Program-made: the position numbers and the translations under genes
Shown here: positions 3,070 through 55,038 of the stretch, piece by piece
Position numbering within the stretch: position 1 is the first letter of the stretch
Layout of the letters: every line of letters starts with the position of its first letter
Assembly (NCBI RefSeq): GCF_021631985.1
Contig: NZ_CP070225.1
Coordinates: forward strand, 62,001 to 126,000
DNA: 64,000 nucleotides
Direction of reading: 5' to 3'
Source: Sandaracinus amylolyticus
GTDB taxonomy: Bacteria; Myxococcota_A; Polyangia; Polyangiales; Sandaracinaceae
The notes under the pieces: model-generated
Seen by the model: only the letters and a program-made list of their open reading frames with translations
The model's database searches: none
What the model was told of the DNA's origin: nothing

Positions 3070-4350
3070 TTGTCGCGTTCATTCTCGGTTCCCACGCTCG
3101 CGCTCGCTGCGGGCCTCACGAGCCTGGTCGTCGGTTGTGTCTCCGACGTCGATCGTCGCGCGCAGGAAGGCATCGACGCGCTCGATCGATGCGACGTGCG
3201 TGGCGCGCACGAAGCGTTCGAGGACGCGCACGAGATGGACGAGACGCGCGGTGACATCGCGCTCGCGTACGCGCTCACCGACCTCGCGACGCTCGTCGAA
3301 GATCCCGCGATCACCGCGCTCGCACCGCGCCTCGGCTTCGATCGCGAGATCGACACCGCGCTGCTCTGGGGCCCGGACGGTCTGCTCGATCGGCTCGGTC
3401 GCGACGAGAGCTGCGAGTCGATCGAGGCGTGGAACGAAGAGAGCTTCCCGCACCCCGCAGTGCGCGATCCCGAGATCGCGTTCTGGGGCACCGTCGATCC
3501 GCGCCTCACGATCGGTGAGGTGCGCGACGCGCTCGTGGCGATCTCGCCCCGCCTCGAGCGCGTGTCGCTCGCGCTCCAGCGCGCGGCCGATCACGTGCAG
3601 GACGGCGGCGTGACGATCGAGGGTGGCTGCGGGCTCGCGACCACGCCGACGCGGGTACAGAGCCCCGAGCTCCTCGCGCTCGCAGCCGGGCTCGAGGCCG
3701 TGCGCGCGACCGCACGCGCGGCCCAGGGCTACGACGGCTCGATCCCCGTCGTCATGATCTTCCGCGGGGCGACCGCCGACGGCCGCGGGGCGTGGATCGA
3801 TGCGATGAACGCGGGCTTCCTGCGCCCCGTCGACGACGCCGCGATCGCCGACTCGCGCGCGATGTTCCGCGTCAGCGCGCAGCTCGTGCGGCGCGCCGTC
3901 CCCGCGGCGAGCGCGGTGCGCTTGGCGCCGCCTGCGAGCGACGCGATCTTCGACTGGAACCGCATCCCCGTGCGCGTGCTCGACGACGTCTATGCGTTCG
4001 CGGTCGCGATCGACGAGGCGCTCGAGGTCGACGGTGCGCACACGATCCCGAGGCTCTCTCCCGAGCTCGACATCGATCTCGGCTCGTTCTTCCGCGATCC
4101 CTTCGACGGCACCGCGGGCGGCCCGCTCTGGTCGATCCAGCGCGACGAGGAGCTCGGCGACGAGTGGATCCAGCTCGACGGTGCCGTGCTCGAGTCGCTG
4201 CTCGCCGATCGCTTCTCCACGAACCCGTGGGCCGCGGATGCGCCGAGCTACGAGTGGGAGATCGACTGGAGCGACATCGAGCGCGGGACCTGGGAGTCGG
4301 TGTTCGATCCCGGCGCGCGCTGGACGAACGGCTACGCCTGCGCGGAGTGA
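3070..4350 (+). CDS. Lipoprotein with helical repeat-like N-terminus, function unknown
   Basis: A 426-residue predicted lipoprotein. I chose the TTG at 3070 because AGGAGG at 3056-3061 sits 8 nt upstream and the product then opens with a clean type II signal peptide ending SLVVGC (Cys23); the open frame upstream has no such features. Residues about 30-75 are helical and TPR-like (AQEGIDALDRCDVRGAHEAF). The remainder is acidic and helix-rich with no domain I recognise. It may be a cargo-like or structural envelope protein. The gene ends 5 bp before a copy of the dispersed structured repeat and faces the NlpC/P60 lipoprotein gene. Confidence 0.8.
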   Translation: MSRSFSVPTLALAAGLTSLVVGCVSDVDRRAQEGIDALDRCDVRGAHEAFEDAHEMDETRGDIALAYALTDLATLVEDPAITALAPRLGFDREIDTALLWGPDGLLDRLGRDESCESIEAWNEESFPHPAVRDPEIAFWGTVDPRLTIGEVRDALVAISPRLERVSLALQRAADHVQDGGVTIEGGCGLATTPTRVQSPELLALAAGLEAVRATARAAQGYDGSIPVVMIFRGATADGRGAWIDAMNAGFLRPVDDAAIADSRAMFRVSAQLVRRAVPAASAVRLAPPASDAIFDWNRIPVRVLDDVYAFAVAIDEALEVDGAHTIPRLSPELDIDLGSFFRDPFDGTAGGPLWSIQRDEELGDEWIQLDGAVLESLLADRFSTNPWAADAPSYEWEIDWSDIERGTWESVFDPGARWTNGYACAE

Positions 4351-4355
4351 GAGAC

Positions 4356-4413
4356 GGTCCAAAATCGGCTCGCCCGCGCAGGGCCCTGCGCGAGCGAGCA
4401 CTCCGGCTGGACC
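4356..4413. repeat. Dispersed structured repeat, family A, short copy
   Basis: Begins GGTCCA and ends TGGACC, matching the ends of the longer copy at 10522-10614. It keeps the outer arms (ATCGGCTCGCCCGC and GCGAGCACTCC) but lacks the middle. The missing part is what lies between two GGGCCCT direct repeats in the longer copy. It lies between convergent genes and can fold as a hairpin, so it may act as a terminator. Confidence 0.8.
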
Positions 4414-4421
4414 GAGAGCAG

Positions 4422-9598: not shown

Positions 9599-10516
9599 AT
9601 GCGCGTCGGGATCCTCACGCTCGCCCTCGCGGCCTCGGGGTGCGGCGCGGGCGCGGGAGCGGTCGAGGCGCGCGCGGAATGCGGGATCTACGGGGCTCCG
9701 CGCGAGACCGGGCGGGTCCGGAACGCGGCCCTCGACGAGGTCTCGGGAATCGTGGCGAGCCGCGCCCATCCCGGCGTCCTCTGGGCCCACAACGACTCGG
9801 GCGACGGGCCGCGCCTCTTCGCGATCGACGCCGAAGCGGGCGCGTCGCGCGGCGAGTGGTTGCTCGAGGGCGCGTCGGCGCGCGACTGGGAGGACATCGC
9901 GATCGAGGTGATCGAGGGTGCGCCCGACCGCCTGTGGATCGGGGACGTCGGCGACAACGGGGCGCGCAACGGGCGGGTCCCGCCGCGCGACTCGGTGATC
10001 GTCCTGCGCGTCGACGAGCCCGAGCCCCTGCCCGAGCAGGAGGCGCAGGAGGCGGCGCGCCCGCTCGCGTACCAGACGATCGTGCTGCGTTATCCCGATC
10101 GCCCGCGCGACGCCGAAGCGATCGCGATCGATCCGCCGAGCGGTGATCTCTTCGTGCTCGCGAAGGAAGACGCCGGCGCGTCCGACGTGTTCGTCGCGCG
10201 CGCTCCGCTCGCCGATGGCGAGACCCGCACGCTCGAGCGCGTCGCGATGATCCAGCTCGCGAGCATGATCACCGCCGCGGACGTCTCGTCCGACGGGCAC
10301 GAGCTGATCGTGCGCACGTACCGCGACGTCGCGTGGTGGCGCCGCGATCGCGACGAGGGCTGGGCCGACGCGCTCGCGCGCCCCGCGATCCTCCTGCCCC
10401 ACGCCGAAGAGCCGCAGGGCGAAGCGATCGCGTTCGAGGCGCGCGGCGCCGGCTTCTACACGATCTCGGAAGGCGACCATCCGCCGATCTGGCTCTCCGC
10501 GCGCTGCACCGACTGA
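9599..10516 (+). CDS. Propeller-like lipoprotein, function unknown
   Basis: A 305-residue predicted lipoprotein. The signal peptide MRVGILTLALAASGC places the lipidated Cys at 15. The mature protein has repeated blade-like segments, for example GIVASRAHPGVLWAHNDSG, DWEDIAIEVIEG and WIGDVGDN, which fit an esterase-like or SdiA-regulated-type beta-propeller. It lacks a recognisable catalytic triad, so a binding or sensing role is as likely as an enzymatic one. It has no upstream Shine-Dalgarno and a -10-like TATTCT just before the ATG. It ends 5 bp before a full copy of repeat family A. Confidence 0.8.
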   Translation: MRVGILTLALAASGCGAGAGAVEARAECGIYGAPRETGRVRNAALDEVSGIVASRAHPGVLWAHNDSGDGPRLFAIDAEAGASRGEWLLEGASARDWEDIAIEVIEGAPDRLWIGDVGDNGARNGRVPPRDSVIVLRVDEPEPLPEQEAQEAARPLAYQTIVLRYPDRPRDAEAIAIDPPSGDLFVLAKEDAGASDVFVARAPLADGETRTLERVAMIQLASMITAADVSSDGHELIVRTYRDVAWWRRDRDEGWADALARPAILLPHAEEPQGEAIAFEARGAGFYTISEGDHPPIWLSARCTD

Positions 10517-10521
10517 AGAGT

Positions 10522-10614
10522 GTCCAAAATCGGCTCGCCCGCTCAGGGCCCTCCCGTCCACGTGCTTCGCACGCTCCCGTGCGGGCCCTGCGCGAGCGAG
10601 CACTCCAGCTGGAC
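10522..10614. repeat. Dispersed structured repeat, family A, full copy
   Basis: A 93-bp element between convergent genes. It has three nested stems: outer GCTCGC with GCGAGC, middle GGGCCC with GGGCCC, and an inner hairpin CGTGC-TTC-GCACG. The ends are GTCCA and TGGAC. Full copies of the same design are at 30031-30201 (two) and 54944-55038, with compensating changes in the stems. Confidence 0.85.
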
Positions 10615-10625
10615 CGACTGATCGA

Positions 10626-30017: not shown

Positions 30018-30030
30018 TTCGAAGATCGTC

Positions 30031-30201
30031 GAAACATCGGCTCGCCCGCCGGTCCCTACCGTGCGCGCGCTTCGCGCGCTCCCGTCCGGGACCTGCGGGA
30101 CGAGCACTCCAGCAAGGACTGCGAAAATCGGCTCGCCCGCGGGTCCCTACCGTGCGCGCGCTTCGCGCGCTCCCGTCCGGGACCTGCGGGACGAGCACTC
30201 C
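30031..30201. repeat. Two tandem copies of structured repeat family A
   Basis: Two nearly identical copies with a 91-bp period, between convergent genes. Each has outer arms GCTCGCCCGC and GCGGGACGAGC, a middle stem GGTCCC / GGGACC, and an inner hairpin GCGCGC-TTC-GCGCGC. The middle and inner stems differ from those at 10522-10614 on both sides, keeping pairing. Confidence 0.85.
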
Positions 30202-30210
30202 GGCAACGAC

Positions 30211-31122
30211 TCACTCCACGGTCAGCTCGACCGGCGCGCCCCACAGCGCGCCGCGAGGACCGGCGACGATGCGCGTGATGCTCGCCTCGCCGGTCCCGCG
30301 CTCGCGCCCCAGCCCGACGCGCACCGCACGCTCGACGCACGCTCGCAGCGCGGCTGGTCCGCTCGAGGACACGGCGACGCCAGCCGCGCTGCGCTGGATC
30401 GCGACCCGCACCGCGACCGGTCGCCACCGCGCATCGATCTCGGGCTGGAGGCACGCGCCCGCGCGCCGTACGGCGAGACGTGCGCTCGGGTCGTCGCCGC
30501 GCTGCGGCTCGACCGCGACCGAGACCTGCGCGAGCGGGCTCGCGAGCTCCGCCAGCATCTCGATCGCCGCGCGCGTCAGGTGCTCGCGGCGGGCGCCCAC
30601 CGCGCGCTCGACGAGACGGCCGAGCGCGATCACGACCTGCTCGAGCGACCACTCCATGCCGTGCTCGGCGAGCGCGCGCGCCGGCTCGAGCGCGTCGCCG
30701 GTCAGGCGCGATGCCGCGGCCCTGCGCGCGACGGCATCGCGCATCGGCGGCGCCTCGCGGAGCGCTGCGGCGTCGTGGGGGCGGCCCTCCGCGTCGAGGA
30801 TCTCCGCAGCGAAGAAGCGCACCGCGCGATCGATCGCGACCTCGCGGATGCGATCGAGGCTCGGGCACCGCCGCGCGCTGCCGAAGCCCGTCGAGCCGCG
30901 CCTCGCGATGACGCCGCAGCGCGGGTGCACGCGTGCTGCGAGCCACACGCGCTCCTCCGGAGACATCCACGCCGCGAGCGATGCCCGGAAGAGCGCGACG
31001 TGCGCATCCTCCTCCGGCGCCGGCGGCTGCCACCCAGGAGGCACCACGTCCGCACGCCCGTGCCCGGGCGCGATCACGATCGCGAGGGCGACCACGGCGA
31101 GGGCGCGACGCACGTCCGGCAT
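30211..31122 (-). CDS. Exported protein of unknown function
   Basis: A 303-residue protein. The ATG at 31122 gives a signal peptide MPDVRRALAVVALAIVIAPG ending near GRADVV, with an AxA-like site and no lipobox Cys. The mature region is helix-rich in its first half (HVALFRASLAAWMSPEERVW, DAVARRAAASRLTGDALEP) and beta-rich in its last 90 residues (VAVRVAIQRSAAGVAVSSSG), a part that resembles the C-terminal TonB/AgmX-like domain only loosely. No family assigned. A GTG at 31131 is an alternative start. Confidence 0.72.
   Translation of the reverse strand: MPDVRRALAVVALAIVIAPGHGRADVVPPGWQPPAPEEDAHVALFRASLAAWMSPEERVWLAARVHPRCGVIARRGSTGFGSARRCPSLDRIREVAIDRAVRFFAAEILDAEGRPHDAAALREAPPMRDAVARRAAASRLTGDALEPARALAEHGMEWSLEQVVIALGRLVERAVGARREHLTRAAIEMLAELASPLAQVSVAVEPQRGDDPSARLAVRRAGACLQPEIDARWRPVAVRVAIQRSAAGVAVSSSGPAALRACVERAVRVGLGRERGTGEASITRIVAGPRGALWGAPVELTVE

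Positions 31123-53588: not shown

Positions 53589-53592
<4 letters not shown>
52342..53592 (+). CDS. Membrane-bound histidine kinase
   Basis: A 416-residue inner-membrane sensor. About five hydrophobic segments fill residues 20-180 with no obvious extracellular domain, so the signal may be sensed in the membrane. The transmitter has the phosphorylated His215 in VAHEIRNPLTAVKG, an N box in EALLNLAQNAVQAM, G1 DTGEGFDPA and G2 GGTGLGLALARS. The HAMP is absent. The stop overlaps the start of the response-regulator gene (ATGA), so the two form a coupled pair. Confidence 0.92.
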
Positions 53593-54905
<1,313 letters not shown>

Positions 54906-54907
54906 AG

Positions 54908-55038
54908 GAGCCCTGCGCCGGCGAGCACTCCAACTGGGCTGATCAAAATCGGCTCGCCCGCTCAGGGCCCTCCCGTCCACGTGCTCCGCACGCTCCCGTG
55001 CGGGCCCTGCGCCGGCGAGCACTCCAACTGGGCTGATT
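54908..55038. repeat. Structured repeat family A: a partial copy followed by a full copy
   Basis: A partial 3' end (GCGAGCACTCCAACTGGGCT) at 54908-54942 is followed at 54944-55038 by a complete copy with the same 3' end, offset by 94 bp. The full copy has outer pairing GCTCGCC / GGCGAGC, middle GGGCCC / GGGCCC and inner hairpin CGTGC-TCC-GCACG. Unlike the other loci, it lies between genes on the same strand. Confidence 0.8.

Follow-up and report, generated by a model that had tools for sequence, protein, structure and literature searches.

Within the 64-kb window (the whole stretch of DNA analysed), genes ending in TGA stop codons are followed by copies of an imperfect palindrome of 80–100 bp (Table 1). 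The window belongs to the 10.75-Mb chromosome of a Sandaracinus strain, a soil bacterium (genome G000), and we compared this chromosome with that of a second, sister Sandaracinus species (G001, 10,327,335 bp). The initial annotation had placed a structured repeat at four loci (4356, 10522, 30031 twice and 54908), and all copies were found at these places. Three of the four loci lie between convergent genes, as had been claimed, while the genes flanking the fourth (54908) are on the same strand. Full copies in the window score 65–76 bits with our profile, against stray matches only in 50 Markov-shuffled windows (∼9–11 bits in those listed), and thus the element is not a product of chance. No Rfam model matched the 64-kb window.

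Table 1. Element copies and adjoining stop codons in the 64-kb window
Feature	Position	Strand	Details
TGA stop codon	4348–4350	+	Ends gene 3196–4350; putative target of the copy at 4351 (gene call and sequence)
Shortened subfamily-A copy	4351–4415	+	Central hairpin lost; right-end motif CCGAG (sequence and profile)
TGA stop codon	10514–10516	+	Ends gene 9599–10516; putative target of the copy at 10517
Full subfamily-A copy	10517–10617	+	Outer GTCC/GGAC, GCTCG/CGAGC, middle stem GGGCCC, hairpin CGTGC/GCACG; orthologous site in sister species empty
Subfamily-B copy 1 of tandem pair	30018–30122	+	
Subfamily-B copy 2 of tandem pair	30123–30210	+	Profile edge 8 nt before TCA of convergent gene; orthologous site empty
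TGA stop codon (TCA on +)	30211–30213	−	Ends gene 30211–31122; putative target of the B pair
TGA stop codon	54903–54905	+	Ends gene 53589–54905; putative target
3′ half of a further subfamily-A copy	54906–54935	+	Array remnant
Full subfamily-A copy	54936–55035	+	Orthologous site filled with three copies

Anatomy and subfamilies

The element falls into two main subfamilies, A (4356, 10522 and 54944) and B (30031), with a smaller third type making up nine of 113 aligned copies. Both A and B carry AAAATCGGCTCGCC...CGAGCACTCC. The stem differences given in the initial annotation are correct: subfamily A has GGGCCC/GGGCCC and CGTGC/GCACG, and subfamily B has GGTCCC/GGGACC and CGCGC/GCGCG (GCGCGC/GCGCGC as first described). 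Read from the target, B runs TGA, then GTCCYTGCC-GGAG-hairpin-GATTTTTCGACAGTCTT(T/C)GAG, and A runs TGA, then GCGAGTGTCC-hairpin-CTCCAGCTGGAC(T/C)GAG, both readings being partly our own; (T/C)GA recurs at the far end of the element. Single copies fold better than shuffles on the strand on which they were found (z of −2.8 to −4.6). Median identity is 96% within arrays and 92.5% among B sites in G000, falling to 79% between A and B. Such head-to-tail arrays are frequent, with a period of ∼77–101 bp (mostly 83–94) and up to at least five near-identical units. A separate 41-bp tandem repeat of approximately ten units is present in the sister species (L137:18672–19093).

The two sides of the stem had been described as changing together, and this covariation had been taken to support selection on folded RNA or DNA. 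As the RNAalifold consensus of mixed subfamilies was poor, we counted pairs for each subfamily. The description holds between subfamilies, where both sides of the stem differ at two positions, but not within them, where changes mostly break pairs. By our own tally, changes in the subfamily-B core stem disrupt a pair ∼56 times, leave a wobble pair ∼14 times and retain pairing by a double change five times, the flanking columns of the pair-count run being unreliable. Pairing broken as often as kept, the outcome that the initial annotation had named as refuting its reading, is therefore found within subfamilies and not between them, and covariation argues weakly for selection on folded RNA. Given that changes inside subfamilies are mostly pair-breaking, the stem resembles a trait handed down within a mobile family more than an RNA in which selection maintains each pair, and self-correction of the palindrome as DNA could also yield the paired changes.

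Copy number and distribution

A search of the whole genome and its relatives, as the initial annotation had proposed, found further copies in abundance. The G000 chromosome holds at least 149 element sites and G001 gave at least 151 model matches, so that the two genomes are comparable (at least 150–151 matches each). The genome contains 105 occurrences of the 13-mer AAAATCGGCTCGC and none of its reversed control. One copy lies on a 209.7-kb plasmid contig of G000 (C2:2689–2773; 209,732 bp), and the Sandaracinus plasmid NZ_MW053453 also carries a copy.

Across the order, the element is present in only two of 183 genomes, G000 and G001; none was found in the other 181 under the more stringent filters applied to large searches. 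G002, a 6-Mb genome assigned to the same genus, lacks both the element and REP-transposase homologues. A pattern scan of approximately 85,000 species genomes gave six matches, one of which scored as a real copy (L121:68–146), on a 5.8-kb metagenome-assembled (MAG) contig labelled Nannocystis. The remainder of this contig best matches Sandaracinus at 67–79%, so it may represent a third lineage or be mis-binned. Viral and phage searches gave no match to the element.

Orthologous sites with and without the element

G000 and G001 align collinearly, with one genome reversed, and are ∼90% identical. REP-like repeats are known to gather near gene ends, either by inserting there or by merely surviving there. 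Since these two species offer many sites both with and without the element, and the stop codon is present either way, the rule of target choice is directly visible, which makes the element a tractable case for asking how mobile DNA spares its host from harm.

We mapped 40 G000 sites to G001. Nine held the element, usually in a different number of copies, and 31 were scored empty; of these 31, one is a decayed remnant (L061 6460), one aligns over much of a degenerate copy (L093 8332), three mappings are imprecise, one site was counted twice through overlapping regions, and the remainder are empty. Clean junctions, given as empty against filled, read CGTCTCACCCC against CGTCTCA[AGGACGG..GGCAGGGA]CTCACCCG, and GATCTGAGCGCG against GATCTGAG[AATCC..GCTGGA]CTGAGCGCG. 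At empty sites, 36 of 40 neighbouring gene ends encode an unchanged C-terminus, and so the stop codon either predates the element or outlived its loss. B copies in G000 are 92.5% alike (median), compared with 64–94% for orthologous filled copies; as they are closer to each other than most orthologous copies are, recent spread by insertion is favoured. On these alignments, insertion rather than loss appears the better account of the differing sites, although proof of polarity would require an outgroup. In L068 and L168:4190, copies may lie in opposite orientation at about the same orthologous place.

Integron attC sites were considered as an identity for the element and set aside, as there are no gene cassettes and the neighbouring genes are kept at empty sites.

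Placement relative to genes and stop codons

Gene context was assessed in sampled 20-kb regions with a home-made gene caller, in which ∼89% of the DNA is coding. Of 85 sampled G000 sites, 82 are intergenic: 40 lie between convergent genes, 39 between same-strand genes and three between divergent genes, with two in a gene and one at a region edge. The corresponding background counts are 182 convergent, 584 same-strand and 184 divergent.

The edge of the element that faces the stop codon is fixed, with the profile edge 8 nt from the stop at most B sites and usually 6–11 nt from it at A sites. At 42 of 57 B sites, exactly 10 nt separate CACTC from the stop, and a stop lies within 13 nt at 104 of 123 sites overall. 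Each subfamily has one orientation to the gene that it follows, and those of A and B are opposite. The target stop is TGA in 96 of 99 cases, against 90% of other stops; a few copies are not at TGA (for example, 333621 and 9603848). Measured against all intergenic TGAs, the fraction of sites at a stop would be 31% (872/2813).

A stricter, gap-matched null model predicts 88.8 of 123 sites at a stop, where 104 were seen, and in gaps with a facing stop and at least two other TGAs, 23 of 28 sites are at the stop compared with 8.0 expected. This excess implies that some targeting or strong filtering exists, between which the data do not separate. A preference for hairpins at empty targets was not significant (p = 0.08).

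REP-transposase homologues

A search for a REP-associated transposase, also proposed in the initial annotation, showed that both genomes encode homologues, but the element flanks none of them. NCBIfam model NF047646 matched six diverged homologues in each of G000 and G001 (E-values of 1e-16 to 1e-10, below the curated cut-off), and the Pfam Y1_Tnp search, with nothing above threshold, was therefore misleading. The homologues carry the motifs HEH (with E in the HuH motif) and Y---NP, and the predicted fold (mean pLDDT of 67) best matches 4er8, a REP transposase bound to its REP hairpin. No element copy lies directly beside any of the 12 genes, the nearest being ∼3.3 kb away, and homologues are common in many relatives that lack the element. 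For both reasons, we regard them as candidates only. The genes are located at L191–L201 (for example, L192:4846–5754) with a conserved upstream palindrome, GGTGGCGG..CCGCCA..CCCACGTTGCGTTTT, and several have flanking DNA common to both Sandaracinus species.

Nature of the element and competing explanations

The element is multi-copy and lineage-restricted, present or absent at orthologous sites, tandem-amplified at some of them, and positioned directly after a pre-existing TGA. We consider it probable that it is a non-autonomous, mobile REP-like palindrome of the genus Sandaracinus, moved as a single-stranded DNA hairpin by an HUH/Y1-type enzyme, and that it is for the most part a self-spreading passenger at the 3′ ends of genes. 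In the proposed mechanism, a REP-transposase-like enzyme of this type would cut and join the hairpin; TGA would serve as both the target and the left cleavage site, and the far-end (T/C)GA as the right one. Subfamilies A and B would use opposite strands of the palindrome, and arrays would grow afterwards through local duplication. No chromosome-wide strand bias of copies was seen in G000, unlike the lagging-strand preference of IS608-type enzymes (PMC6006769), which counts against an HUH enzyme.

The flanking TGAs could equally be a target duplication of 3–4 bp made by an ordinary transposase. The element would then derive, in the manner of a MITE, from a DDE insertion sequence whose TGA(G)/(C)TCA target is duplicated, an explanation that accounts for TGA or CTCA on both flanks and the single copy at the empty site. 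We judge it unlikely, because in both subfamilies the far copy frequently reads CGA instead of TGA, as expected of a motif borne by the element, each subfamily keeps a single orientation to its target, and we saw no full-length relative that carries a transposase gene. A conserved bidirectional or intrinsic transcription terminator, maintained by selection behind genes, is very improbable. Strong hairpins, a U-run and the 40 of 85 sites between convergent genes would suit such a role, but the element is mostly missing at orthologous gene ends and stem changes within subfamilies mostly break pairs. The bidirectional terminator suggested in the initial annotation is also unsupported in that the U-run is on one strand only and A and B are oppositely oriented to their genes; in subfamily A the run is on the wrong strand for the gene followed, facing away from it. 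No intrinsic terminator was called around 10522, the one locus scanned, and some empty sites retain hairpins or T-runs of their own. The element thus probably has no essential terminator role.

The position at stop codons may instead reflect purifying selection on random TGA-targeted insertion, with no targeting of stops as such. This is compatible with a hairpin moved by an HUH/Y1-type enzyme and is a serious possibility, if somewhat short of an even chance: coding sequence fills most of the sampled DNA, short gaps offer few other TGAs, and the gap-matched expectation is already high. The excess nevertheless persists in roomy gaps. That the mobilising machinery itself recognises the stop-codon context (TGA at gene ends), perhaps via exposed single strands or the transcript, is a more doubtful proposal, which we advance tentatively. 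If true, the element would have a built-in safe harbour, inserting just after, and hardly ever inside, host genes.

Comparison with known systems

The alternative name in the initial annotation, a REP-like element, is borne out by the large number of dispersed sites, the imperfect palindrome, the intergenic position near gene 3′ ends and the mobility between species. The publications consulted contain no description of the Sandaracinus family. The element is a high-copy, dispersed, intergenic imperfect palindrome, as REPs are, but in place of the GTAG/GTGG 5′ foot it has GGAG on one strand and an outer TGA tag. It resembles the REPtron/TnpA-REP (RAYT) system (PMC2817692, PMC8266576) in its imperfect hairpin, in the GGAG 5′ of the stem on one strand (our reading) and in the homologous transposases in the genome, and differs in having no transposase gene between two inverted copies and in carrying GGAG rather than the published GT[AG]G. 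The class 3 TnpA-Y1 palindromes, with a 5′ foot of CnGA (PMC6006769), are likewise high-copy, and the subfamily-A target is mostly CTGA; however, no class 3 transposase was identified and the Sandaracinus homologues have Y---NP, the signature of class 2. Bacterial MITEs, among them the enterobacterial RU/ERIC elements (PMC2229807), are similarly ∼100 bp, non-autonomous and near genes, whereas the Sandaracinus element has a fixed stop-codon address and shows no typical terminal inverted repeats linking it to an insertion sequence. Once transcribed, it would fold into a strong hairpin a few nucleotides after the stop codon. E. coli REPs no more than 15 nt from a stop can stall ribosomes (PMC12306157).

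The GTAG- and CGTC-tagged REPs (PMC3733652) are also high-copy intergenic palindromes within 20 bp of ORF 3′ ends, in convergent and same-strand gaps, and the CGTC REPs likewise have no flanking transposase gene. GTAG REP termini often supply the TAG stop codon itself (PMC3733652). These REPs are 20–40 bp long, with a GTAG or CGTC tag and inverted dimers (PMC3733652), whereas the Sandaracinus element is 80–100 bp, with internal loops, a TGA/(T/C)GA tag and direct tandem arrays, and its stops are demonstrably present in empty alleles. REPs abutting stops were already known (PMC3733652); the novel part is the apparent, near base-exact insertion after pre-existing TGA stops.
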